Assembly (NCBI GenBank): GCA_026390115.1
Contig: JAPLGO010000038.1
Span: 62,001-126,000, forward strand
Length of the DNA: 64,000 bases
Direction: 5' to 3'
Source: Campylobacterales bacterium
GTDB taxonomy: Bacteria; Campylobacterota; Campylobacteria; Campylobacterales; Sulfurimonadaceae
Shown here piece by piece: positions 10,367-25,496 of the stretch; position 1 is the stretch's first letter; every line of letters starts with the position of its first letter. The notes beneath the pieces were generated by a model, which saw nothing but the letters and a program-made list of their open reading frames with translations, had not been told where the DNA came from and made no database searches. Both the position numbers and the translations under genes were made by a program.

Positions 10367-10837
10367 ATGAACTTAACACATCTTGATGAGAAAGATAGAC
10401 CGAAAATGGTAGATGTTTCTGACAAAATTCAGACGACAAGAGTTGCTGTTGCGAGTGGAATAATTGAGATGAGCAGAGATGCTTATGACGCAATTGTAAC
10501 TGAGAAGACCAAGAAGGGTCCAGTGCTTCAAACAGCAGTTATAGCGGCGATAATGGGTGCTAAAAAGACAAGTGAGCTTATTCCCATGTGCCATCCATTA
10601 AATCTTAGTGGAATTAATTGTGATGTTGAGGAACTTCCAGCCCTTCCAGGATTTAAACTTATTTTGACTGCAAAACTAACGGGTCAAACCGGAGTAGAGA
10701 TGGAAGCACTTACAGGAACAAGCATAGGTCTTTTGACAATTTACGATATGGTAAAAGCGATAGACAAGAGCATGATTATTAGAAATGTTCAACTTGAAAC
10801 TAAATCAGGAGGCAAAAGTGGAGATTATCAACGATAG
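10367..10837 (+). CDS. moaC: Cyclic pyranopterin monophosphate synthase
   Basis: A 156-residue protein that converts the MoaA product into cyclic pyranopterin monophosphate, the first stable intermediate of Mo cofactor. Conserved motifs are MVDVSDK near the N-terminus, LIPMCHPL and the C-terminal [12 protein letters not shown]. The catalytic Lys-rich region is in [10 protein letters not shown]. The length is typical. A DUF493 gene overlaps its last codons. Mo cofactor is required by SoxC encoded 9 kb away. Confidence 0.92.
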
Positions 10838-11087
10838 TGTTCAGAAACTCGAATTAACTTACCCATGTACTTGGTCTTATAAACTTATAGGTTATGAAAA
10901 AGAGACGATACAAAAGGCAATTCATGAGGTTATTTTGGGAAGGGAGCATAATTTAAACCATTCAAATGTCAGTAAAACAAATAAATATATTAGTATGAAT
11001 CTTGATTTGCTTGTCCATAATGAAGATGATAGAAACTTTATTTATGAGGCTCTGAAAAGCCATCAATATATTAAAATGGTACTCTAA
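10818..11087 (+). CDS. DUF493 (YbeD-like) protein
   Basis: Start chosen at GTG 10818 because AGGAGG lies 5 bases upstream inside the end of moaC; the longer frame to 10785 would overlap moaC further. The 89-residue product fits the small DUF493 family: [15 protein letters not shown], a central helix and a C-terminal [20 protein letters not shown]. The fold resembles ACT/ferredoxin-like regulatory domains. Function in these bacteria is unknown. It is translationally coupled to moaC and is followed after 10 bases by the next gene. Confidence 0.75.
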
Positions 11088-11097
11088 GGAGAGTAAT

Positions 11098-12159
11098 ATG
11101 GATTTAGAAAAATTACAGAGAGACTTGAAAAACTCGTATAAAAGAGACCTTCCAACTGTGAATGAAAGAGTTGAGGATATTGTAAAACACTTAGTGACAG
11201 AGTGGAATGTTGATGCAAATGCTCTCAATCTGCATGAAATAAAAACATTGGCAACTGCAATTTTGGACATCGAAACCAAAACTCTTCAGGATGAAGTTGA
11301 AATACTTTTAGCTAAGAAAGAGCAGATAGAGCGGAATCTTGACAGAAAATCTGAAGTACTCCAAGAGTTAAAATATCGCGTTTTTAACGCTATGGAGATG
11401 CAAGTAAATCCTGATGATACTCAAATCTTATCAAAACTGCATCAGGTCAAACTGCAATCCATTGATTTATTTGATTTACTTGGAGAAATGGTTGAATCTG
11501 CGATTATTACGGCTCTTGAAAAGGATACAGACGGTGATATAAAGGAAGCAACAGAGGAGATGATTAAGGAGTTAACTTTTGAAGCTATTAAAGAAGGTTC
11601 TCTTAATACAATTAGAATCAGAAAAATCCTTTCTACTATTTTGCAATCGGCAATAGATGTGGCAGAAGCGACTCCTACAAGAGCAGAGGAGATTCTAAAT
11701 GCAACTCTTAAGGGAATGAGAAGCGGTCTTATTCGCTCCATTGATAGATTTAAAAAACGTCTTGCATACATGCCAATTGAAGCAAAACATATTTTAATTG
11801 AGGATTACGACACAATAATTGAGGATTTAAGCCAAACGGACATTCTCTTCTCACAAGTCATTCAAACGCAAGCCTCTCAGAGTTTATCCAGTACTGAAAA
11901 AATACTTTTAGAGATAAATAAAAATATGTCCTATGATCTTGAAGAATTAGTTCATATTTCAAAAGAAGCTGCTGAAATAATGAGAGAGAGATTCTCGGCT
12001 CTTGCTAAATCGGCTGTCAGAAAAGCTGATAATGCTCTAAAGTCTCAAACAGCGCAAGAGGCAAAAAGAATGGGCAAGCAGGCTTGGGGAATAGCAAAAA
12101 CAGCTCTAGAGAGTGCTATAAAATCTGCAAAATCTGCGGCTGAGTCAAAAGATAAGTAG
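11098..12159 (+). CDS. Helical protein of unknown function
   Basis: A 353-residue protein that I do not recognise. It has no signal peptide or transmembrane segment and is almost wholly helical with many heptad-like stretches (notably 60-110 and 270-350). The tail is rich in Ala, Lys and Ser (SAIKSAKSAAESKDK), reminiscent of histone-H1-like or apolipoprotein-like amphipathic helices. A strong AAGGAG site precedes the ATG. It is the third gene of the moaC operon, separated by 10 bases. Possible roles as a structural or polymer-associated cytoplasmic protein are guesses. Confidence 0.6.
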   Translation: MDLEKLQRDLKNSYKRDLPTVNERVEDIVKHLVTEWNVDANALNLHEIKTLATAILDIETKTLQDEVEILLAKKEQIERNLDRKSEVLQELKYRVFNAMEMQVNPDDTQILSKLHQVKLQSIDLFDLLGEMVESAIITALEKDTDGDIKEATEEMIKELTFEAIKEGSLNTIRIRKILSTILQSAIDVAEATPTRAEEILNATLKGMRSGLIRSIDRFKKRLAYMPIEAKHILIEDYDTIIEDLSQTDILFSQVIQTQASQSLSSTEKILLEINKNMSYDLEELVHISKEAAEIMRERFSALAKSAVRKADNALKSQTAQEAKRMGKQAWGIAKTALESAIKSAKSAAESKDK

Positions 12160-12356: not shown

Positions 12357-12947
12357 TTAAAATTCGCCCTTAGCGCCTAAGTCCATCATTTTATACATAG
12401 TTGACCTAACATGATTAGCTTTTTCTAACATTTCAGGAGGCAATGTATGTCCACCAAAAAGCATAAGTTCCATTGCCATTGTAACTAACCATCTATCTCC
12501 TTTATCATCTTCTACGATAAGAATTCTACAAGGCATAAATGCACCATATGCCACAGAATAATCAATAAATGTTTTTGCTATACCAGGACTACAGTAGTGA
12601 AGAATTCGAATATATCTCTGTCTTTTACCCTCATAGTCCTTTTCTTCTGCCATATGTGAATCACCAACTTGAAGCATGTTGGCATCAGTCGCTATACTCT
12701 TCATTGCTTCTACAACCGCTTCAGTAGAAACATCAGGATCTATTTTAACTTTTCTTATCATAGCTTCTGCAGAGTTGCCTGTAGTAAGAACACCATCAGC
12801 CATTTTCATATAAGCACCCATTGCCTGAGGGTCTAATTTTGAAGCTTGCTTTATCCTTGTGCCTAAGTCAAACTTTACAAATGCAAAAAGCATACCTACA
12901 ATTACTACACCGCCAATAACAGCTAATATATTTCTTATTGGATTCAT
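12357..12947 (-). CDS. Membrane-anchored DUF302 protein, last gene of the sox operon
   Basis: A 196-residue protein with one N-terminal hydrophobic segment (residues 6-25) and a DUF302-type domain in the rest: RILHYCSPGIAKTFIDYSV, AFMPCRILIVEDDKG and WLVTMAMELMLFGG. The domain would face the periplasm. Two cysteines (in HYCSPG and MPCRI) lie where other DUF302 proteins often keep Cys or hydrophobic residues. The DUF302 family has no firmly assigned function but recurs next to sulfur-oxidation genes. It is the third DUF302 domain in this operon. Confidence 0.7.
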   Translation of the reverse strand: MNPIRNILAVIGGVVIVGMLFAFVKFDLGTRIKQASKLDPQAMGAYMKMADGVLTTGNSAEAMIRKVKIDPDVSTEAVVEAMKSIATDANMLQVGDSHMAEEKDYEGKRQRYIRILHYCSPGIAKTFIDYSVAYGAFMPCRILIVEDDKGDRWLVTMAMELMLFGGHTLPPEMLEKANHVRSTMYKMMDLGAKGEF

Positions 12948-12973
12948 TTTTTTCCTTTTTTCTTTATTTTTTT

Positions 12974-14317
12974 TTATTTATCAAACATGTCTGAATACAG
13001 GGTATTAGCCCAAGCATAAATAGAATTTGCATTTGCAACTCCATCTTTTTTCCAGTCCTCACTACTGCTCGTAGATGCAAAATCAAATGTTTCATTTGTT
13101 TTGTTATAAGCATACTGAGTATAGATGTATATAGCTCTTTCAGGATTAATAGAAATAGCAGAAAAGCAAGTGGTTGTAGGTGGATACCATTTAATTTCTT
13201 CTGTTTTATTTATTTTTTGTGCAATTAATTGAGCTACGTGATGACCCTCAGAGTTTGAAGTATTCCCTGATTTAGAAAAGCCCATTGGTCTAGAATCTCC
13301 AGTCACATATATATTTTTTTCACCCTTTACTTCGTATGTTAAAGGATTTATATTTCCTTCTAGTTTATTTTGCCCATCTTTAGCAATACCAACTTTCTCT
13401 AAAATTTTAGCTCCTCTAACATGCGGATAAAATGCAGCTTCTTCGAAGTGAATATCTTCAAATTCAGTTTCAACTATTTTCTTTTCTAGGTCAATTTTCT
13501 TTATAGATGTGTTAGGGCGATAGTCAATATACTCGCTATAGAGTTCATCAAAAGCAGATTGAAAGCCTTTTTTCTTAATAGTTATAGCATTATTTTCATC
13601 TAATAATATAATTTTTGCTTTTATCCCCTTTTGTTTGAAATAATCTGCGATAACACAAGCTCTCTCATACGGTGCTGGAAGGCATCTATAATTCCCGCTT
13701 GGAACTGTCAGAATAAAGTTTCCACCTTTAAAGGTTAAAACCTTGTTTCTTAGACTAATATGTTCAGATCCAGGAATAAAACCAGCCGGATACTCTTGTC
13801 TTAGTCTAGTCTCAAAAGCTATATCATCTGTCCAACGTGAGTAGTCATAATCAATACCAGGTGCAAAAACCAGATAGTCAAAACTAATATCACCATCACT
13901 AGTATGTAAAAGGCGATTTTTTCTATCTAAACCAATAGCAGTTGCATGAAAGTATGTATAGTTATTCTCTCTTGCAGCCTGAAGATAATCATGCGTTAAA
14001 TATTCTAATTTTATCTTATCTACAAGCCATAAGTTGCTCAGTGGACAAGAAATAAATTCATGTCTTTGCTCAACCAAAATTACATCAGCATTCGGAGCAA
14101 ATATTTTTGTATATTTCGCAATTGATAATCCAGACCATCCACCACCAACAACAACAACTCTAGGACCTTTTGCATCTGCGATTGGCGCACTGTTGATTGA
14201 TTTAGTTTTAGGTGTTTGATTTGGTTTCAGCTTTTCCGCTTCACTATATCCACTTACTGCAGTTGTTGCGAGAAATAGACCTGAAAGTTGTAAAGCCTTT
14301 CTTCTTGATATAGCCAT
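12974..14317 (-). CDS. FCSD-like flavoprotein with Tat signal (SoxF-type)
   Basis: A 447-residue flavoprotein resembling the sulfide dehydrogenase subunit of flavocytochrome c. It has a twin-arginine leader (SRRKALQLSG), an FAD-binding start VVVVGGGWSGLS, and a second dinucleotide region. CPLSNLWL and YRCLPAPYE each contain a cysteine, which could form the redox-active disulfide seen in FCSD, and GDSRPMGFSKSGN binds FAD near the C-terminus. No c-type cytochrome subunit sits next to it, so it would need another electron acceptor. Sulfide or polysulfide as substrate is inferred from the family and the sox context. Confidence 0.78.
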   Translation of the reverse strand: MAISRRKALQLSGLFLATTAVSGYSEAEKLKPNQTPKTKSINSAPIADAKGPRVVVVGGGWSGLSIAKYTKIFAPNADVILVEQRHEFISCPLSNLWLVDKIKLEYLTHDYLQAARENNYTYFHATAIGLDRKNRLLHTSDGDISFDYLVFAPGIDYDYSRWTDDIAFETRLRQEYPAGFIPGSEHISLRNKVLTFKGGNFILTVPSGNYRCLPAPYERACVIADYFKQKGIKAKIILLDENNAITIKKKGFQSAFDELYSEYIDYRPNTSIKKIDLEKKIVETEFEDIHFEEAAFYPHVRGAKILEKVGIAKDGQNKLEGNINPLTYEVKGEKNIYVTGDSRPMGFSKSGNTSNSEGHHVAQLIAQKINKTEEIKWYPPTTTCFSAISINPERAIYIYTQYAYNKTNETFDFASTSSSEDWKKDGVANANSIYAWANTLYSDMFDK

Positions 14318-14337
14318 TGGGACTTCCTCTATTTATA

Positions 14338-15276
14338 TTACTCTGTTACTTCTTTTACTACTTTTATCATAAGTTCTTGTGCATCTTCGAGTACTTTTAT
14401 AGATGGTTTGTCTTCAATTGCTAAAGAGCTAATCCAGTTATATACAGATGGATATGCCATATTTACAACTGAAGAACCTTTTTCTTTATACATGTAGAAA
14501 GTACAAGGAGCAAATGCACCAGCTTCAGGATGGTTTTTTGCTACTTCAAATATAACTGGAAGTTTACAAATAGAGTATGCATCAAAAAAATCATATTTGT
14601 CGTATCCAGCTTCTTTAAACCCATTTCCAAGTTTATTGTATCCAGCTATAACAAATCCAACAGTTTCAAGTGAACCCTCTAGCTCGGTCTGAAGACCCTC
14701 TAACTTATCTTGAATAGCATCACCTTGAGCTTCCATCTCTGTAGTAAAGGTTGTTGCTAATTCACCCTTAGCTTCTAATGGCTTATATGCTATTTTTTCA
14801 AAATGACCATTTGGAAGAGCTTTTGCAAGAGTATCAATAACAAGTTTGCTGTACTCCTTCATATGCTTATTTTCTGCAGATATGCCAGTGATTTTTGCCA
14901 TACCATCTATAGATAGGGATGAAATTGAGATATTATTTGAATCTTTGTTCATATATATTGACATACTTAAAGGTGCAAATAGTGCAGCTTTAGGAGATTC
15001 TTTAACTAGTGCTAATACTAAGTCTTTTTTATAAAGAGTAAAAAGATGGTACATCCTATGATTTGTTTTTTGAAACTTTGATTCAAAGGCTTTATTCATA
15101 TCATTGTTTCCAGAAATAGTAAACCCTGCATCCGCAAAAGTTTTTTCTATTGTTGCGCCTGTTACGTTACCTTTAGCATTATCAGTAGTGTATATCTGAA
15201 TATCTTGCGCTGCACTCGCAGTAACTCCAGCCGCAAGCAAGAGGGTCGCAATCAAACCTTTTATAATCGACTTCAT
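14338..15276 (-). CDS. Periplasmic protein with two DUF302 domains
   Basis: A 312-residue protein with a Sec signal peptide (MKSIIKGLIATLLLAAGVTASA) and two DUF302-like halves. The first has NHRMYHLFTLYK and ALFAPLSMSIYMNK; the second has FFDAYSICKLPVIFEVAK and GAFAPCTFYMYKEKG. The halves match each other in order and spacing, so the gene arose by internal duplication. Only the second half has the paired cysteines. It is probably a soluble periplasmic protein; ligand and function are unknown. Confidence 0.72.
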   Translation of the reverse strand: MKSIIKGLIATLLLAAGVTASAAQDIQIYTTDNAKGNVTGATIEKTFADAGFTISGNNDMNKAFESKFQKTNHRMYHLFTLYKKDLVLALVKESPKAALFAPLSMSIYMNKDSNNISISSLSIDGMAKITGISAENKHMKEYSKLVIDTLAKALPNGHFEKIAYKPLEAKGELATTFTTEMEAQGDAIQDKLEGLQTELEGSLETVGFVIAGYNKLGNGFKEAGYDKYDFFDAYSICKLPVIFEVAKNHPEAGAFAPCTFYMYKEKGSSVVNMAYPSVYNWISSLAIEDKPSIKVLEDAQELMIKVVKEVTE

Positions 15277-15309
15277 TTCTTTTCCTTTTTTGATTTTACG
15301 AAACTATTG

Positions 15310-15744
15310 CTATTCATTTAAAAGATAAACTAAATCATTTTTTTTAATAGTTGCACCATTAATTACCTTTGCAAAAATTCCCCTACCATCTTCAAGTATT
15401 TTTGGTAATTTTGCATCTACCTTAGCAAGACTTTCGCAAAGCGTGCAATTTTGACTAATCTCTAATACAAGTTCACCTATCATAACTTTTGCGCCTGGTT
15501 TTAAATGATATGGATTGTAATCTATTAGTATATTCTCACCCAATGAGCTATATGGTGCATCTATACCATGCTTCTTAGCCAACCAATAACTATCTTGCGA
15601 AGTCATCAAAACTGATCTTTGTAAGTTTTTATTGTAATATTTATCTTTCATAACACCCTTATTATCAAGAGCTAACTCTGCTGTGCTTATTCTGCCGTCA
15701 TTTGTAGAATAAAACAGTTCTAAAACTTTTCCAACTAGTAACAT
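15310..15744 (-). CDS. MOSC-domain protein
   Basis: A 144-residue stand-alone MOSC domain, the fold found at the C-terminus of Mo cofactor sulfurases and in YiiM-type enzymes. GRISTAELALDNKGVMKDKYYN, SLGENILID, and a conserved-position cysteine in NCTLCESLAKV support the assignment. There is no signal peptide, so it is cytoplasmic. MOSC proteins carry sulfur or bind Mo cofactor. Beside soxC, a Mo enzyme, it could adjust cofactor sulfur or relay persulfide; this is inference. The gap to the upstream thioredoxin gene is 12 bases. Confidence 0.75.
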   Translation of the reverse strand: MLLVGKVLELFYSTNDGRISTAELALDNKGVMKDKYYNKNLQRSVLMTSQDSYWLAKKHGIDAPYSSLGENILIDYNPYHLKPGAKVMIGELVLEISQNCTLCESLAKVDAKLPKILEDGRGIFAKVINGATIKKNDLVYLLNE

Positions 15745-15756
15745 ATAAACCCTTAG

Positions 15757-16206
15757 TTATTTGAACTCTTCTATACCCATTTCTTGATATGAGTGACTAT
15801 CTATATAGCTCAGAATCTTGAAATATTTATCTTCATCTTGATATCCAGGCTGTGAATATACTATTTCTTTTTTGTTGTTCATAAATATAGTGCTGGGGTA
15901 AAAATCATAACCTAAATATTTTGCAAAGTCTCGTCTGCTTCCCTCAAAGTTCTTAAAACTAACCTTTCCGGTATCTGCAATATTAATATCTACAAAAACA
16001 AAGTCTTTTTTTATTTTAAATGCTATTCTTTCATTTTGTAATGTGAAATCTATCATTCTTTCACAGTATCCACAATTTGGCTTGTGCAGAAAAATCAACA
16101 CATGCTTATGTGATTTTTCTGCTTCGCTAAAAAGTGTATCAACTTTAATATCTTCAGCACTAATAATACTGAAAATAAAAACCAATAAGATAAAAACTTT
16201 AATCAT
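15757..16206 (-). CDS. Periplasmic thioredoxin-fold protein (SoxW-like position)
   Basis: A 149-residue protein with a signal peptide (MIKVFILLVFIFSIISA), then a thioredoxin fold with the active site CGYC in HKPNCGYCERM and a cis-Pro region FYPSTIFMN. Thioredoxins of this kind (SoxW/DsbE-like) keep sulfur-carrier cysteines reduced, here probably that of SoxY. It lies between the MBL and MOSC genes in the sox operon. A general thiol-disulfide role cannot be excluded. Confidence 0.75.
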   Translation of the reverse strand: MIKVFILLVFIFSIISAEDIKVDTLFSEAEKSHKHVLIFLHKPNCGYCERMIDFTLQNERIAFKIKKDFVFVDINIADTGKVSFKNFEGSRRDFAKYLGYDFYPSTIFMNNKKEIVYSQPGYQDEDKYFKILSYIDSHSYQEMGIEEFK

Positions 16207-16229
16207 ATTAACTTTATAGAGTGTAATTC

Positions 16230-17270
16230 TTACTTCTCATCATCATCGCCACTATACATTTCTAGCTCTTCATAAGCTCTAAATACATTTTGCGCACTAA
16301 GAGTGTAATATAAATCTTTATCTCTAAACTCTTCTAGAGTAACAGTTTTTGTAATATCATCTGCTTTGACACCATCTTCAACAGCTTGTAAAACTCTTTT
16401 TTTAGTTAAATCAAAATATTGAATAGATTCATCAGCAGCTGTTTTATCTGTAACAAAACCGTGACCTGGTACCAAATGATTCCAATCTCTAGATTTTATC
16501 GCCTTAAGTGCCTCAATCTGACCGATAACTATGCCATCTCTATTTGAGGTAACTCTTCCATTCATAACTACATCAGCAACTAAAACGACTTTATCATCTG
16601 GTAAATATAGGAACCAATCATCTTCAGAGTGTGCGTATCCAACATGAACATATTCTAGATTTACACCAGAGACAGTAAATTTTGTTGTCTCTTTAAATGA
16701 TTTATCAACAGGAACAAGTTCTGTTCCTCTAATAGCATCTTGATACAAGGTTTTAACCATTCTTGTTTGGTCACCCTTGTGATAGTTCACATTTATAGAT
16801 GGTGTGCCTATAATTTCAGCACCATGAACTTGTTTATAGTAGTTGTTTCCTAACCAGTGATCATCATGCTCATGACTTACTATAACCGTCTTAACAGGAA
16901 GATTTGCAATTTTACTCATTGCAGCATATGCCTGTTTTGCAAAATTATAGGATGGACCACTATCCCATGCTATCCAACTATCATCACCTTTAATGTAACA
17001 ACTATTCGACATATCTCCAGCATTTTCTTTTGTCGGCATTTCTAATGTGCCAAAGAAACACCAAACTCTATCACTTACTTTTACTGGCTTTAAGTTATAA
17101 TTCCAGTCTGGAGCCGCGCTTTCGCGTGGTTCCACCCATTCATTAATAATAAAGTTATCATCAGCATCAAGTTTATGTGGATCTGTAATTGTAACACTTT
17201 TATTAAATATGAACGGCATCGACAAAACAAATGCCAATATTGAGAATAAAAGAATTAATTTAATTTTCAT
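16230..17270 (-). CDS. Metallo-beta-lactamase-fold hydrolase (SoxH-like)
   Basis: A 346-residue exported or membrane-anchored MBL-fold protein with an N-terminal hydrophobic leader. The metal-binding motif HEHDDHWLGN is intact. Further ligands are HVGYAHSEDDWFLY, VVLVADVVMNGR and the H in LVPGHGFVTD. The arrangement resembles SoxH-type and other thioester or persulfide hydrolases in sox clusters. It starts 8 bases after soxZ with a good AAGGA site, so it is co-translated with it. The substrate is unknown; a thioester, sulfane-sulfur or glutathione-like compound is plausible. Confidence 0.75.
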   Translation of the reverse strand: MKIKLILLFSILAFVLSMPFIFNKSVTITDPHKLDADDNFIINEWVEPRESAAPDWNYNLKPVKVSDRVWCFFGTLEMPTKENAGDMSNSCYIKGDDSWIAWDSGPSYNFAKQAYAAMSKIANLPVKTVIVSHEHDDHWLGNNYYKQVHGAEIIGTPSINVNYHKGDQTRMVKTLYQDAIRGTELVPVDKSFKETTKFTVSGVNLEYVHVGYAHSEDDWFLYLPDDKVVLVADVVMNGRVTSNRDGIVIGQIEALKAIKSRDWNHLVPGHGFVTDKTAADESIQYFDLTKKRVLQAVEDGVKADDITKTVTLEEFRDKDLYYTLSAQNVFRAYEELEMYSGDDDEK

Positions 17271-17278
17271 AAGAATCC

Positions 17279-17578
17279 TTATTTAACTACTTCTGTCTCA
17301 GTCTCTGTTTTTCCACCGTTATCTGTTGTAGTTATTTCTAATTTATCGCCTGCCTTGCCTTTATACGAAAACTTAAAAAGAGGGTTTTCAGCCATAAATC
17401 CACTTGTTGTTACTTCAAATACCACATTTCCATTGTTTTTTGCAACAATTTGAGTAATAAACTCCGATGCTATTTTCTTTTTTTCTGCTTCTTCTTTATC
17501 TGCCATCAAGCTTGTAAACATTGCTTTTACACCTACAACGCCATCTTTTTCTTTTGCTTTAATTTTCATATTTGCCAT
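17279..17578 (-). CDS. soxZ: Thiosulfate-oxidation carrier subunit SoxZ
   Basis: A 99-residue SoxZ protein, partner of SoxY in the periplasmic sulfur-carrier heterodimer. It has the usual immunoglobulin-like beta sequence (MANMKIKAKEKDGVVGVKAM, ITQIVAKNNGNVVFE, NPLFKFSYKGKAGDKLEI) and no signal peptide, since SoxZ is exported with SoxY through the Tat pathway. Its ribosome site lies directly next to a TAAAA tandem repeat (see repeat entry). Other sox clusters in this group carry further soxYZ copies; none is in this window. Confidence 0.92.
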   Translation of the reverse strand: MANMKIKAKEKDGVVGVKAMFTSLMADKEEAEKKKIASEFITQIVAKNNGNVVFEVTTSGFMAENPLFKFSYKGKAGDKLEITTTDNGGKTETETEVVK

Positions 17579-17587
17579 TTTATTGCC

Positions 17588-17615
17588 TTTTATTTTATTT
17601 TATTTTATTTTATTT
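17588..17615 (-). repeat. Pentanucleotide tandem repeat in the soxY-soxZ gap
   Basis: Five full TTTTA units plus TTT (TAAAA on the coding strand) abut the AAAAGG ribosome site of soxZ. The repeat lies in the 65-base spacer, with the soxZ start 10 bases away. Copy-number changes would alter soxZ leader length, not a reading frame. Confidence 0.85.
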
Positions 17616-17643
17616 GTGTTGTATTATGATTGGTGATGATAAA

Positions 17644-18102
17644 TCAACCACCACATCCGCCAATAGAAACATCTATTTCTTTAAATGTTGTATATAATAC
17701 ACCATCTCTTCCTTTAGCTACGATTGTTACTACTGCTGTTTTTCTCAATTTAATTCTAAATTCGTAATCAATGATTGCATCTTTTGGAATTGTAAACACA
17801 GCTGTTGTACTTCTTGGGTTTGCATCTTGGAAGATTGCAATAGACTCAAGATCTAAATCACTTTGAATTGTAAGTGGGATTGATCCGCCGTTTTCTGCAA
17901 GTTTTGGTGCTGTAAACTTGATTTTATCAGTTTCTTTCAATCCAGCTGTACCAAACATCTCTTTGATTGCTTCAGGAACATGCTCTGCAGCGAATGCTTT
18001 TGGTGAAGTAGCTCTAAAGTCTACCGCTTTTAACTCTGTTACCGGAGCAATAAGTGCAGCTGCTGCTGCAATACTTACGCCTAAAAATTTTCTTCTATCC
18101 AT
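17644..18102 (-). CDS. soxY: Thiosulfate-oxidation carrier subunit SoxY
   Basis: A 152-residue SoxY. A Tat leader (MDRRKFLGVSIAAAAALIAP) precedes a beta-sandwich domain, and the protein ends in IGGCGG, the swinging arm whose cysteine carries the sulfur substrate as thioether-bound thiosulfonate or sulfane. SoxCD, encoded just upstream, oxidises that sulfane. The order C-D-Y-Z on one strand with short gaps supports co-expression. Fully confident identification. Confidence 0.95.
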   Translation of the reverse strand: MDRRKFLGVSIAAAAALIAPVTELKAVDFRATSPKAFAAEHVPEAIKEMFGTAGLKETDKIKFTAPKLAENGGSIPLTIQSDLDLESIAIFQDANPRSTTAVFTIPKDAIIDYEFRIKLRKTAVVTIVAKGRDGVLYTTFKEIDVSIGGCGG

Positions 18103-18119
18103 TTTATTTTCCTTTTTGT

Positions 18120-19295
18120 TTAATGTTTTTTCTTACTTGAGTCTATCATAAATTCAACTATCATTTGAACTTCACTGTTTGTAAAGTTTTCATAGCCACC
18201 TTTAGGAGGCATTCCGCCCACACCATCTATTGCGTTATGCACAACATTGTCAAAACCTTTTTGTGTAACTTTGTTCCATGCCTCTACGTCTCCAACAACT
18301 GGAGCACCCATTTTGTCACTTCCATGGCAAAGTTTACAAGAATCATTATACATTTTTTCAGCTTTTGATTCAAGTTTATTTTCCACTTCAGGTGGTAAAT
18401 CTCTAGCCATAGAGTATGGAGGTACAACATCTGTAATTTCATTATCTATTTTCATTACAGTAGGCTCATTTCCTTTACTGCTTAAATCTTTACAATCTTT
18501 CATGCAGCGTGTACCTGCGCCAATATTTTTAGCACGATCAGAGAAAAATTTTCTTACATTCTCTACTCCATTCGGACCATCTATATTTGGATAAAAACCA
18601 TTTTCATTAGGCATTTTTATCTTCATTAATTTTTCTCTATTTAATACAGAGTCATCATCCATTTCTTGACCATCAATAAGGATATTGTCTTGTTTTAATA
18701 AATATGCAGTAATTGCATAAATATCATTATTTGTTAAGCTTTTTGGATGTGCATATGGCATAGCATCTCTAATATACCAAATAAGTGTAGTAGCCTTTGG
18801 CCAGTATGTACCAATAGTTCTTTTTGGAGCTTCCATTCCTGGTTCTATTCTTTGATTAGTAAGAGTTTTAATCACTCCATTTGGTAATTTCTCTTGATTC
18901 CCACCTGTTAATGTTGGGTAACCCTTACCACCAGCACCGAACTCACCATGACAAGAAGAACATTGTTTTTCATAAAGCTCATCACCTTCTGAAACTGAAC
19001 CTTCACCATCCGGCAAACCAGTACCATCCGGCATTATATCAACATCCCAAGCTTTTAATTCATTAGCAGTTGGAACTCGACCAAAATTCACACCTTTAGT
19101 ACTCTGTTCATTATAACGATAAGCAGTGTAAGTACCATCTTTTCTTGGATATATAACACCGCCGTCAACGGCTCCCATCTTAGAAATATATTTTCCAGGA
19201 AGAGCATTTGTGTCGCTTCCTCCATAAAGAAGAGTTGAGCTTAACACCAAAGCAACACTAGTTGTAATTAACTTAAATAGATCTAACTTGAACAT
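18120..19295 (-). CDS. soxD: SoxD, dihaem cytochrome c subunit of sulfane dehydrogenase
   Basis: A 391-residue periplasmic cytochrome with a signal peptide (residues 1-25) and two c-haem sites: CSSCH at 112-116 and CKLCH at 320-324. Distal ligands probably lie in the methionine-containing segments after each site. SoxD takes electrons from the Mo centre of SoxC. Its start overlaps the soxC end by 23 bases, indicating translational coupling. A pair of extra cysteines at about 264-268 (RCMKDC) is not a haem motif. Confidence 0.92.
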   Translation of the reverse strand: MFKLDLFKLITTSVALVLSSTLLYGGSDTNALPGKYISKMGAVDGGVIYPRKDGTYTAYRYNEQSTKGVNFGRVPTANELKAWDVDIMPDGTGLPDGEGSVSEGDELYEKQCSSCHGEFGAGGKGYPTLTGGNQEKLPNGVIKTLTNQRIEPGMEAPKRTIGTYWPKATTLIWYIRDAMPYAHPKSLTNNDIYAITAYLLKQDNILIDGQEMDDDSVLNREKLMKIKMPNENGFYPNIDGPNGVENVRKFFSDRAKNIGAGTRCMKDCKDLSSKGNEPTVMKIDNEITDVVPPYSMARDLPPEVENKLESKAEKMYNDSCKLCHGSDKMGAPVVGDVEAWNKVTQKGFDNVVHNAIDGVGGMPPKGGYENFTNSEVQMIVEFMIDSSKKKH

Positions 19296-20577
19296 TATTC
19301 ACCTCCCCTTTTTTAGTAACTTCCCAAGTACAAATTGAGTTTCTGTGATAAACGCCCTCAACACCCATAACCTCTTTTTCTTGATTTACTGTTGGCTGTA
19401 CATTTTTACTATCATCAACTGCGCGACTTTGAAGTAATAATGGCTTTCCTGTAAATTTATGCATATAAGAGAACCTAGTCCAAGATTTTGGAAGGACTAA
19501 ACCTTTTAGATTTGCTTCAACCCAATTCTTTCCGCCATCTAAACTGATATCAACATTTGTAATCGTTCCATGTCCACTCCATGCTAAACCTTCAATTTCA
19601 ACTAACTCCCCTCCTGTTAGATCAGTCCAAGGTCTTTCAGGACAAGGCGATGTAATAATAGAGTTTACTTCGAGCGCATAAAAGTGTTGTATAGCTCTTC
19701 CACTTGCCGTTAATGCAGTATATTTAGAAGTTTCTTCTTTTGCGTACCATGGTTTGTCACTGAATTCTAATCTTTTTAGCCATTTAACACAAAGATTTGC
19801 TTCCCAACCTGGAAGCATTAAACGAACTGGATAACCTTGCTCTGGACGAAGAGCTTCACCATTTTGTCCCCAAACTATCATAGCATCATCTAGAACTTTT
19901 TCAACAGGAACACTTCTCCCCATCTCAGAACCATCACTACCTTCTGCCAGCATCCATTTAGCTGTTGGTTTAAGACCTAGCTCATCTAGAATAGTTTTCA
20001 GACGAACTCCCGTCCACTCTGAAGCACTCATCATTCCTTTTAAAAATTGTAAAGAGTTGAATTGTGGACCTTTCCACTCGCCAGCTCCATTTGAAGGACA
20101 TTCTAAAAAGTGAATTCTACTTTCGCTTGGGTATCTTTTCAATTGTTCCAAAGTAAGAACAATTGGCTTGTCCACTAGCCCATGAATCATTAGTCTATAC
20201 TTGTTTGGATCAATTTGAGCTATGCCATTATGTGTTCGAGTAAAATGCAAACCATTAGGAGTGATTATTCCTTTAAGCTCATGTAATGGCGTCATAGATA
20301 CCGCAGCATGCATATCTCCAGCAGATGACATAAGACTTGATGTTCTTCTTACAACATTGTGCTCATATTTTGATGGTAACCCATAAGGATGTTCATTTAG
20401 TTCATTTCCTAAAGTAGTTCCCCATTGTGTATGGTGTATGATATTTTCATCATCTGCGAATAATGAGCTTGGCGACATAATAGCCGCGGCGGCAACAGCA
20501 CTCACAGATGCAGTTTTCTTAAAAAATTCTCTTCTGCTAAGAGAGTTTAATTCTTCAGTTTTGAATGTTTTATCCAC
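19273..20577 (-). CDS. soxC: SoxC, molybdenum subunit of sulfane dehydrogenase
   Basis: The start is taken at GTG 20577 because AAAGGAG lies 6 bases upstream and the product then begins 12 residues before the Tat motif SRREFFKK; the longer frame lacks a good start. The 434-residue protein belongs to the sulfite oxidase family. The Mo-binding cysteine is C160 in FLECPSNGAGEW, and MLPGWEANLCVKWLKRLE and the C-terminal dimerisation domain (NVDISLDGGKNW) follow. With SoxD it oxidises SoxY-bound sulfane without releasing sulfite. It is the first gene of the operon. Confidence 0.93.
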   Translation of the reverse strand: MDKTFKTEELNSLSRREFFKKTASVSAVAAAAIMSPSSLFADDENIIHHTQWGTTLGNELNEHPYGLPSKYEHNVVRRTSSLMSSAGDMHAAVSMTPLHELKGIITPNGLHFTRTHNGIAQIDPNKYRLMIHGLVDKPIVLTLEQLKRYPSESRIHFLECPSNGAGEWKGPQFNSLQFLKGMMSASEWTGVRLKTILDELGLKPTAKWMLAEGSDGSEMGRSVPVEKVLDDAMIVWGQNGEALRPEQGYPVRLMLPGWEANLCVKWLKRLEFSDKPWYAKEETSKYTALTASGRAIQHFYALEVNSIITSPCPERPWTDLTGGELVEIEGLAWSGHGTITNVDISLDGGKNWVEANLKGLVLPKSWTRFSYMHKFTGKPLLLQSRAVDDSKNVQPTVNQEKEVMGVEGVYHRNSICTWEVTKKGEVNNVQVRSI

Positions 20578-21119: not shown

Positions 21120-21365
21120 TTAATGAGTTTTTTTCTCAAATATACCTATTATAAAATCTATAGTTTTTCTAAGAATTAAAATTGCACAATAGATGACAAA
21201 AGAGTACAAAAAGGGATGAAAAAAATTTTCTTTTTCATACATATTGTGAAGTCTTAATAATGGATTGTTCAACAAGTCGTTGTGCATTATTAGAGCCAAT
21301 GCCAATAGTGTAAATAAATAATAAAGAACCTCTTTTTTTATTGTAAGTTTAAATTTTTCTACCAT
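21120..21365 (-). CDS. Small membrane protein of unknown function
   Basis: An 81-residue protein with two predicted transmembrane helices (about 12-32 and 50-72) and a basic C-terminus (FEKKTH). A good AAAAGG site precedes the ATG. I do not recognise the family. It stands alone between the sox operon and the next hypothetical gene. Confidence 0.5.
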   Translation of the reverse strand: MVEKFKLTIKKEVLYYLFTLLALALIMHNDLLNNPLLRLHNMYEKENFFHPFLYSFVIYCAILILRKTIDFIIGIFEKKTH

Positions 21366-21515: not shown

Positions 21516-21974
21516 TTATTTAGACGTTTTCGAATTACTATCTTTAGTATCACCTTCTTTCAACTCGATTATAAGTTCTCGTCGCTTAATTAGAAGGCGT
21601 TCTAAAATCTGTTCACCAACTTCTTCTCTGTCTTGCCAATTTGCTTCATGAAAAATATCAAAAAGCTTTTTGAAATATTCATAATGAATATCGCCACTTG
21701 TGACTTTAAAAAAATAAAATCTTAAAAAAAGAATATCATCAATTACGCTAATTGCTATTTTTTTGCCTATGCTTTGAGGGTATACATTTTCTTTTATCCA
21801 AGTTATAAAAAATTCAGACTCTTGGAACCAGTTGTATAAATATAAATCTTTATCTTTTAAAAGATTGTAGGTCAGTATTTGTTCGTCGTTCAGCTCTAAA
21901 AGATATACATTGTCATCTTGTTCAAATTTATCAAGAGTCTCATCATAGATAACAAACTCAAATTTTACTTGCAT
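21516..21974 (-). CDS. Hypothetical acidic protein
   Basis: A 152-residue soluble protein that I do not recognise. It is rich in Asp, Glu and aromatic residues, with several beta-like segments in the first 110 residues and a charged helical C-terminus (VGEQILERLLIKRRELIIELKEG). There is no signal peptide. An AGGA site lies 7 bases before the start. It is downstream of the SQR-like gene on the same strand, with a 138-base gap. Confidence 0.5.
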   Translation of the reverse strand: MQVKFEFVIYDETLDKFEQDDNVYLLELNDEQILTYNLLKDKDLYLYNWFQESEFFITWIKENVYPQSIGKKIAISVIDDILFLRFYFFKVTSGDIHYEYFKKLFDIFHEANWQDREEVGEQILERLLIKRRELIIELKEGDTKDSNSKTSK

Positions 21975-22112: not shown

Positions 22113-23588
22113 TTATGCTCGACCAGAGAGCATACCGTACATTGTCATAGGTTTAAGAGCATATACTTTCATCAACCAAAATACCCATCTTTCAACTAGT
22201 GGATCAAGTGGGAATGAAGGTGTTGGCTTAACAGTCCAATCAAACTCAGCTAACATAACAGTGCCAATACTCGTTATCAATGGACAAACTGTGTAACCAG
22301 CATATTTAGATGGCATTTTTTTCCCTTCCATTTTAGCTATCAAGTTATCTACAAGAACCTTATATTGTTTTCTTACAGAACCACCTGTTTTACCCATTGG
22401 TACTTGAGCAATATCACCAATAGCAAATATATTTGCAAATTTGATATGTTGAAGAGTCTCTTTATTTACCGGTATCCAGCCACCAGCTGAACCTATATCA
22501 GACTCCGCAATTTCTCTTGGAGCTATTTGTGGAGGAGTGATATGTAAAAAATCATAAGGAACTCTTAGTTTTTCATGTTTGCCAATAACTTCAAAATCTC
22601 TCATCATTGGATCCCATCTACCTTTTTCTTGCCATTTAGAATCAAAAACAGCAATTTTATTCTCGAGCTCCACTTCTACCAGATTATGTCTATAATGCCA
22701 TTTAAAACCTTCTCTTTTAAATTGTTCTAAAATAGCGTCATGGTATTCTGGAATACCAAACATTAGTCCACCATTTGGATAGTATGTAAGTTCGGCATTT
22801 TCTCTCGCACCAGCTTCTTTAAGTCTAGAATTTGTAAGATAAACAATCTTTTTAGGAGCTCCACCACATTTAACAGGGGTATCAGGATCCGTAAATACAA
22901 ATTGAGTTTTTTTGCCAGATTTCGCCTGAGCTACATACTTTTGCATTTGCTCCCAAGTTTTAGTAGCGCCTTCGGCAGTATATATTGAGCATACGCCACT
23001 GTCGCCTAAAACTTTAAGAAGTTTTGAATTGTCTCCAGAAGAATAAGCTCTGCCAGCTGCTTCTAAGCCTTTGATTCTCTCAAAATCAAGCTGTAAGCCA
23101 GTTGCTACAATCAAATAGTCATAAGAAACTACTTCTCCACTAGCCGTAGTTACTTTGTTGTTATTAGGATCAAATCCTATTACTTTGTCCTTAATAAGTT
23201 TTACACCACTTGGAACAAAGTCATCTCTTTTATAAGCAATATCACTTTCTTTCCAGATACCGCCAGCGACCAAAGTTTGCCCTGGCTGGTAAGACACCGA
23301 TAAAGCTTGAGGCTCAATAACGGTAATATCAGGGTTTGCAAGATTAAGTGTTAATCTTGCAGCAGTTGACATGCCTGCAAGCCCACCACCAACAATTACA
23401 ATTTTACCTTTAGCAGTAGAAACAGCTGGAGCTGCTTCAGTAGATGCTTCAGCGCTAGAAGCACCGCCCATTATAAGACTTGCACCAGAAATACCCGCCA
23501 ACTTCATAGCATCTCTTCTACTGAGGCCTTTTGAAGATAAATCCTTGTCCATCTCTGCTAACATTTTATTAATATATTTATAATCCAT
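22113..23588 (-). CDS. Sulfide:quinone oxidoreductase-like flavoprotein with Tat signal
   Basis: A 491-residue flavoprotein. Residues 1-50 hold a Tat-like leader in an unusual position after 22 residues (SRRDAMKLAGISG...SSAEA). FAD binding starts at KIVIVGGGLAGMSTAARL. Three cysteines sit in typical SQR contexts: GVCSIYTAEGATKTW, DTPVKCGGAPKK and YTVCPLITSIG. The pattern is closest to type II SQR. The C-terminal helices (WVFWLMKVYALKPMTMYG) would dip into the membrane. It oxidises sulfide to sulfane sulfur and reduces quinone, on the periplasmic side if the leader works. Confidence 0.85.
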   Translation of the reverse strand: MDYKYINKMLAEMDKDLSSKGLSRRDAMKLAGISGASLIMGGASSAEASTEAAPAVSTAKGKIVIVGGGLAGMSTAARLTLNLANPDITVIEPQALSVSYQPGQTLVAGGIWKESDIAYKRDDFVPSGVKLIKDKVIGFDPNNNKVTTASGEVVSYDYLIVATGLQLDFERIKGLEAAGRAYSSGDNSKLLKVLGDSGVCSIYTAEGATKTWEQMQKYVAQAKSGKKTQFVFTDPDTPVKCGGAPKKIVYLTNSRLKEAGARENAELTYYPNGGLMFGIPEYHDAILEQFKREGFKWHYRHNLVEVELENKIAVFDSKWQEKGRWDPMMRDFEVIGKHEKLRVPYDFLHITPPQIAPREIAESDIGSAGGWIPVNKETLQHIKFANIFAIGDIAQVPMGKTGGSVRKQYKVLVDNLIAKMEGKKMPSKYAGYTVCPLITSIGTVMLAEFDWTVKPTPSFPLDPLVERWVFWLMKVYALKPMTMYGMLSGRA

Positions 23589-25154: not shown

Positions 25155-25496
25155 ATGAAAAAGATTATTCTTTCTGCATTAGTAGCGAGTGTTACTTTAA
25201 TTGCAGCAGACAGTGCAGCAGTATATAAATCAGGTTTGCTGTTGCCGGCAAATGGTGCAGCAATTTATAAAAAAAATTGTGCGTTATGCCATGGTGAAAA
25301 AGGTGAAAAAATTGCTTTTGAAGGGTCTATTGCAATTGCTGGTATGGATAAAGTTAAACATGCAAAAGAGTTAAAAGACTATAGATACGGAAGTATTAAC
25401 AAATATGGTTATGGTGCTCAGATGAAAGGAAAGCTAGTTGACCTTTCTTGGGATGAAATTGATGCTGTTGCTGAATATGTTCAAGGCTTAAAATAA
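25155..25496 (+). CDS. Monohaem cytochrome c, periplasmic
   Basis: A 113-residue class I cytochrome c with a signal peptide (MKKIILSALVASVTLIAA). The haem site is CALCH near residues 42-46 (KKNCALCHGEKG). A likely distal Met is in GAQMKGKLVDLS, and the C-terminal helix is DEIDAVAEYVQGLK. Such small cytochromes shuttle electrons to terminal oxidases. It could serve as acceptor for the SQR/FCSD or Sox proteins encoded nearby, but it is a separate transcription unit. Confidence 0.85.
   Translation: MKKIILSALVASVTLIAADSAAVYKSGLLLPANGAAIYKKNCALCHGEKGEKIAFEGSIAIAGMDKVKHAKELKDYRYGSINKYGYGAQMKGKLVDLSWDEIDAVAEYVQGLK

Follow-up and report, generated by a model that had tools for sequence, protein, structure and literature searches.

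A separate soxCDYZ cluster, its synteny with an adjacent MBL hydrolase gene, and DUF302 genes near sox genes in Sulfitobacter and Acidithiobacillia are already known. In Sulfurovum indicum, soxCDY2Z2-soxH2 combines soxCDYZ with an adjacent MBL gene in a synteny that was called conserved; the cluster was up-regulated on S0 and assigned to S0 oxidation, and its soxH2-like MBL protein was proposed to release sulfate (PMC10045233). The words MOSC, FadL and DUF are absent from the text of that paper, which leaves the rest of the tail undescribed under those names. Strains with soxCDY2Z2 alone are reported to use S0, not thiosulfate (PMC12403661). In Paracoccus, soxXYZABCDEFGH with soxVW (locus L135) forms one full cluster that includes soxXAB. 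There, soxC-soxD is followed by an FAD oxidoreductase in the SoxF position and MBL hydrolases in the SoxG and SoxH positions, a thioredoxin in the SoxW position lies upstream, and no MOSC or DUF302 gene is annotated within 19 kb. Sox clusters of other phyla and classes also contain DUF302 genes, as soxF-DUF302-soxH in Sulfitobacter, a member of the Alphaproteobacteria (PMC11034169), and as soxA-DUF302-soxB in Acidithiobacillia, where the product is a 191-aa DUF302 protein (PMC5037610).

We analyzed a window of 64,000 nucleotides, positions 62001-126000 of its contig, from a member of the Sulfurimonadaceae whose 2.64 Mb genome was rated 100% complete. Ten co-directional minus-strand genes occupy 12357-20577 in the order soxCDYZ-MBL-thioredoxin-MOSC-double DUF302-FCSD-DUF302 (Table 1), and the short gaps reported in the initial annotation were borne out, with intergenic distances of -23, 17, 65, 8, 23, 12, 33, 20 and 26 bases. 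Most starts in the cluster are preceded by an AG-rich, Shine-Dalgarno-like stretch, and the GTG start of soxC at 20577 has AAAGGAG in front of it. Terminator-like matches on the minus strand fall within genes, and their number barely exceeds that in shuffled sequences. The same gene order was found again in named relatives, mostly at 55-96% identity, and the ten-gene arrangement is therefore not a product of chance.

Table 1. Genes of the predicted ten-gene operon, in order of transcription
Gene or product	Coordinates	Strand	Supporting features
soxC, Mo-containing sulfane dehydrogenase subunit	19273..20577	-	TIGR04555, 616 bits; GTG start
soxD, di-haem cytochrome c	18120..19295	-	two cytochrome c stretches; conserved order
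soxY, sulfur carrier, C-terminal GGCGG arm	17644..18102	-	PF13501; TIGR04488, 123.4 bits
soxZ	17279..17578	-	TIGR04490, above cut-off
Periplasmic MBL hydrolase, SoxH-like (soxH2), intact HxHxDH zinc motif	16230..17270	-	PF00753
Periplasmic thioredoxin-fold protein, SoxW-like, CxxC	15757..16206	-	PF13098 (Thioredoxin_2)
Stand-alone cytosolic MOSC protein, C100-x-x-C103	15310..15744	-	PF03473
Periplasmic double DUF302 protein, C237 and C258 in second half	14338..15276	-	PF03625, second half
FCSD/SoxF-like flavoprotein	12974..14317	-	PF21706 and PF09242 (FCSD_central, FCSD-flav_bind)
Membrane-anchored single DUF302 protein, C119 and C140	12357..12947	-	PF03625, 38.7 bits

The cluster is convergent with a plus-strand group at 10367-12159 consisting of moaC, a DUF493 gene and a DUF6781 gene, and moaC thus lies beyond its 3′ end on the opposite strand. 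In relatives, the soxCD cluster is flanked by leuC and, in many of them, by moaC and a mobA-like gene, so that cofactor genes adjoin an operon for a molybdenum enzyme. Upstream of soxC, 22113-23588 on the minus strand encodes another FAD flavoprotein, which stands at 28% to the FCSD of the cluster; small conserved unknown genes at 21516-21974 and 21120-21365 and a cytochrome c gene at 25155-25496 accompany it.

The SoxC score lies well above the TIGR04555 equivalog cut-off of 420 bits; profile matches place the protein among molybdopterin-binding oxidoreductases of the sulfite-oxidase family, and it carries a twin-arginine signal with the motif LSRREFF. SoxY scores slightly below the TIGR04488 cut-off of 125 bits and ends in SIGGCGG, the carboxy-terminal arm. 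Pairwise comparison with Paracoccus gave 23% for the MBL protein against the SoxH position (E 1e-20), 25% for the thioredoxin against the SoxW position (E 7e-12) and 27% for the FCSD against the SoxF position. The MBL protein resembles SoxH in similarity and in its HxHxDH motif but scores below the TIGR04558/9 cut-offs; it keeps the zinc motif HEHDDH where the Paracoccus protein has the aligned segment NENGQGH, and H-HDDHWLGN is conserved in 38 sequences. C45 and C48 of the thioredoxin are invariant. The FCSD aligned to 1fcd (E 3.5e-36) with both cysteines matching, as expected of a SoxF/FccB flavoprotein. Its relatives at 68-96% identity are mostly Sulfurimonas and Sulfurimonadaceae MAGs, which makes the host a Sulfurimonas-like member of the Campylobacterota. 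By position and pairwise similarity, the MBL, thioredoxin and FCSD proteins are the counterparts of Paracoccus SoxH, SoxW and SoxF. The absence of a cytochrome partner for the flavoprotein was confirmed: no fccA or soxE adjoins it, the nearest cytochromes being SoxD and the separate gene at 25155, and the cytochrome subunit of a flavocytochrome c sulfide dehydrogenase was not found next to the FCSD. An extra MBL gene, whose product stands at 24% to the window MBL, occurs in two relatives (L084:6091-6927 and L057:11550-12386), either between the MOSC and double DUF302 genes or right after the MOSC gene near a contig end.

Three DUF302 domains had been proposed, and at the level of fold all three can be recognized; in Pfam the first half of the double protein falls under the threshold. 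The model of this protein (mean pLDDT 91.7) repeats in its first half the strand and helix order of the second, and the second half has the DUF302 fold (1q9u, Z 10.9; 1j3m, Z 10.3). The initial annotation had correctly confined cysteine to the second half but had counted one residue where there are two. C237 and C258 (96% conserved in 55 sequences) lie 21 residues apart, and a pair at the same spacing occurs in the single DUF302 protein and in the solved DUF302 structure 1q9u.

Relatives carry a second cluster, soxXYZAB-OprD porin-MBL-SoxW-like thioredoxin-DsrE-double DUF302, with members missing in some genomes. Its MBL, thioredoxin and double DUF302 genes are separate paralogues of the copies on the soxCD side, and in the DUF302 tree the soxAB-cluster copies form their own clade (100/99) apart from the soxCD copies. 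The two clusters differ in that MOSC is found at soxCD and DsrE at soxAB. Since paralogous MBL, thioredoxin and double DUF302 genes accompany SoxYZ at both, we infer from sequence relationships that the three may form a SoxYZ-service set. Whereas the Acidithiobacillia protein is a 191-aa DUF302, the one here is double and goes with soxCDYZ, and relatives have a paralogue of it at soxXYZAB. A search of a literature collection that covers few subscription papers returned no soxCDYZ with DUF302 and no double DUF302 paralogues at two sox clusters.

Members of a third double DUF302 clade either accompany a FadL/Toluene_X protein plus an unnamed protein or form a second copy that closes soxCD clusters. 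At L087:14824-18528 and L105:12278-16393, the FadL/Toluene_X outer-membrane protein, the double DUF302 and the unnamed 280-aa protein are encoded together, sometimes beside FCSD, and this unit might serve to take up hydrophobic sulfur. In a Sulfurovum-like genome (G304:C1:1763639-1775333), the double DUF302 occurs three times with identical score, 3.9 kb apart, near SoxB and together with partial MBL copies; this is a tandem amplification or an assembly repeat.

Linkage of the accessory genes to soxC was followed in a family sample of 101 genomes and a phylum sample of 279 Campylobacterota genomes. Whole-region loci in named relatives mostly read soxCDYZ-MBL-(thioredoxin)-MOSC-double DUF302-FCSD-(single DUF302), with FCSD apart in several. 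More than 50 soxC neighborhood maps share the core soxCDYZ-thioredoxin-MOSC-double DUF302; MBL and thioredoxin recur next to soxCDYZ in many loci, and among the soxC loci (>50) MBL occurs chiefly in two settings, the lineage of the window and a group whose MOSC is divergent from soxC. Of the 101 family genomes, 61 contain both soxC and MOSC, which lie ≤12 kb apart in 52/52 same-contig cases; the double DUF302 gene is near soxC in 35/37. Of the 34 genomes with both soxC and FCSD, only 6 have the two close together; in 6 more they share a contig at a distance, and in the remaining 22 they are on separate contigs. In five genomes the distance is ~300 kb or more. The linkage expected of the accessory genes thus holds for MOSC, largely holds for the double DUF302 and fails for FCSD, and the proposal that the tail is one sulfide-handling module is not supported. 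A tail acting as a single unit was rejected, as FCSD and the single DUF302 are unlinked in most relatives. It falls instead into three parts: MOSC; MBL, thioredoxin and double DUF302; and FCSD with the anchored DUF302, the last two genes being optional components.

The double DUF302 was also considered as a strict SoxC partner, and this was rejected. Many SoxC genomes of the phylum sample lack it; strong copies were found in 31 of the 279 genomes, and by hand count 29 of these 31 have SoxB or SoxC, including 10/10 SoxB-only genomes.

SoxB gave no match in the window genome in a search that exceeded the cut-off in 62 of the 101 family genomes, and the SoxB component of a complete thiosulfate-oxidizing Sox system was therefore not found there. 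A SoxA search of the same genome, run without a positive control, also gave no match. By analogy with strains that carry soxCDY2Z2 alone, the bacterium is predicted to use S0 but not thiosulfate. The explanation that we favor, and consider fairly probable as a whole, is that of a stand-alone SoxCDYZ operon for the oxidation of SoxYZ-bound sulfane sulfur in which the MOSC protein handles Moco for SoxC. Its steps are those that we infer for the gene products, Moco handling by MOSC included. Sulfur would be loaded onto the arm cysteine of SoxY and oxidized there by the molybdenum protein SoxC, with the SoxD haems accepting the electrons; sulfate would be released by the SoxH-like zinc hydrolase in place of SoxB, and the SoxW-like thioredoxin would re-reduce SoxY. 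The periplasmic double DUF302 protein, with its two cysteines, may serve SoxYZ by holding or transferring sulfane sulfur, and the SoxF-like FCSD would be an optional add-on that oxidizes sulfide and supplies sulfur. As an obligatory replacement for SoxB the MBL protein is weakened, since it is absent from five of the ten SoxC-only genomes (G003, G030, G142, G280 and G302, in which SoxC and MOSC are present and SoxB was not found), and another route of sulfate release is required in those five.

The MOSC protein has 144 residues, and its model (pLDDT 94.2) matches known MOSC structures at Z 14 to 19, among them YuaD (19.2), YiiM (16.4) and mARC1 (16.3). Profile searches against PDB sequences returned chance matches only, and the relationship was settled by the fold search. 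C100 and C103 show no variation across 62 sequences, and the protein thus has both the fold and the invariant cysteine of MOSC Moco-binding proteins. YiiM binds Moco, and its invariant cysteine was modeled near the metal (PMC5818509). The residue numbers in that study (Q115, R117, S118, C120) imply a QxRSxC pattern in YiiM where the window protein has CxxC; at the level of motifs, C103 would then match the family cysteine and C100 would take the place of R117. The window protein further differs from YuaD, YiiM and mARC1 in being only 144 aa long and in its tie to SoxC.

The distribution of MOSC is that of SoxC. Both are present in 46 of the 279 Campylobacterota genomes, both are absent from 233, and none has only one; because genomes share ancestry, the Fisher value of 9e-54 overstates their independence and should not be taken as a true probability. 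Thresholds are not delicate here, the weakest per-genome best match being 5.8e-23 for MOSC and about 5e-150 for SoxC. The two genes lie on different contigs in four pairs and are 90 kb and 292 kb apart in genomes G153 and G155, and in several genomes of the phylum sample MOSC is divergent from soxC. MOSC is present in 0/10 genomes with SoxB and without SoxC, and in 10/10 with SoxC and without SoxB. MOSC protein distances correlate with those of SoxC (r 0.58) and SoxD (0.62), and less with those of the neighboring MoaC (0.40). In the family sample SoxC lacked a MOSC match in four genomes and MOSC lacked SoxC in one; all five assemblies are incomplete, and in one of 80% completeness (G041) a different ORF occupies the expected MOSC place. 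Because MOSC is found in exactly those surveyed Campylobacterota genomes that have SoxC, SoxC probably requires it in order to function. In a plasmid collection, 40 records from Alpha- and Betaproteobacteria contain SoxC and none contains this MOSC, which speaks against a general need of SoxC for MOSC; as far as tested, with plasmids as the outside comparison, the dependence is a feature of this phylum.

The best reading of the distribution, the modeled fold and the sequence motifs is that MOSC would act in the cytosol, handling Moco for SoxC ahead of Tat export. As a molybdenum protein with a twin-arginine motif, SoxC should receive its cofactor in the cytosol, the compartment in which MOSC is placed; there MOSC would bind the Mo-MPT cofactor and load or protect it for SoxC until export. 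The further proposal, that MOSC is a dedicated cofactor-insertion or protection factor on which Campylobacterota depend for sulfane oxidation, is tentative, and we hold it at not quite even weight. The literature search described above gave no link between MOSC and SoxC, which is weak evidence of novelty.

The tail could also be read, as in the initial annotation, as a sulfur relay or sulfide-handling module; in it the FCSD would make persulfide from sulfide, and MOSC and the DUF302 proteins would pass the persulfide sulfur on. In favor are the invariant CxxC of MOSC, a published prediction that MOSC domains act as sulfur carriers (Anantharaman and Aravind 2002, cited in PMC2997495), the conserved cysteine pair of DUF302 and the two aligned cysteines of the FCSD. 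Yet in most relatives FCSD lies outside the cluster, and MOSC accompanies SoxC also in genomes whose FCSD is remote or missing. The MOSC model opens with a beta strand and shows no recognizable export signal, so the protein should not come into direct contact with periplasmic sulfur. As MOSC follows SoxC and not FCSD or SoxB, Moco handling fits better, and we regard the relay as unlikely. Somewhat more doubtful still is an independent YiiM- or mARC-like Moco enzyme that detoxifies SoxCD by-products (N-oxides, peroxide) and is not a maturation factor: fold and family do match Moco-binding reductases (PMC5818509), but restriction to SoxC genomes would be unexpected, and presence in 46/46 genomes with SoxC and 0/233 without argues for SoxC dependence. 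That the accessory genes are passengers moving with soxCD by horizontal transfer and sharing no role is very improbable, for while the cluster appears to have moved between families (the Sulfurovum-like G304, an Arcobacteraceae MAG) and FCSD and the single DUF302 behave as passengers would, MOSC is kept when far from soxC or divergent from it, and distinct double DUF302 paralogues stand at both sox clusters.

SoxCD-only Campylobacterota oxidize S0 by a poorly understood route. DUF302, a domain of unassigned function, recurs with MBL and thioredoxin at both sox clusters and can therefore be tested as a partner of SoxYZ. To our knowledge, no dedicated maturation factor is known for an enzyme of the sulfite-oxidase family. 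If the Moco-handling reading is true, MOSC would be such a factor, and a gene that shares the presence and absence pattern of SoxC in all genomes of the phylum sample offers a direct handle on how SoxC is made.
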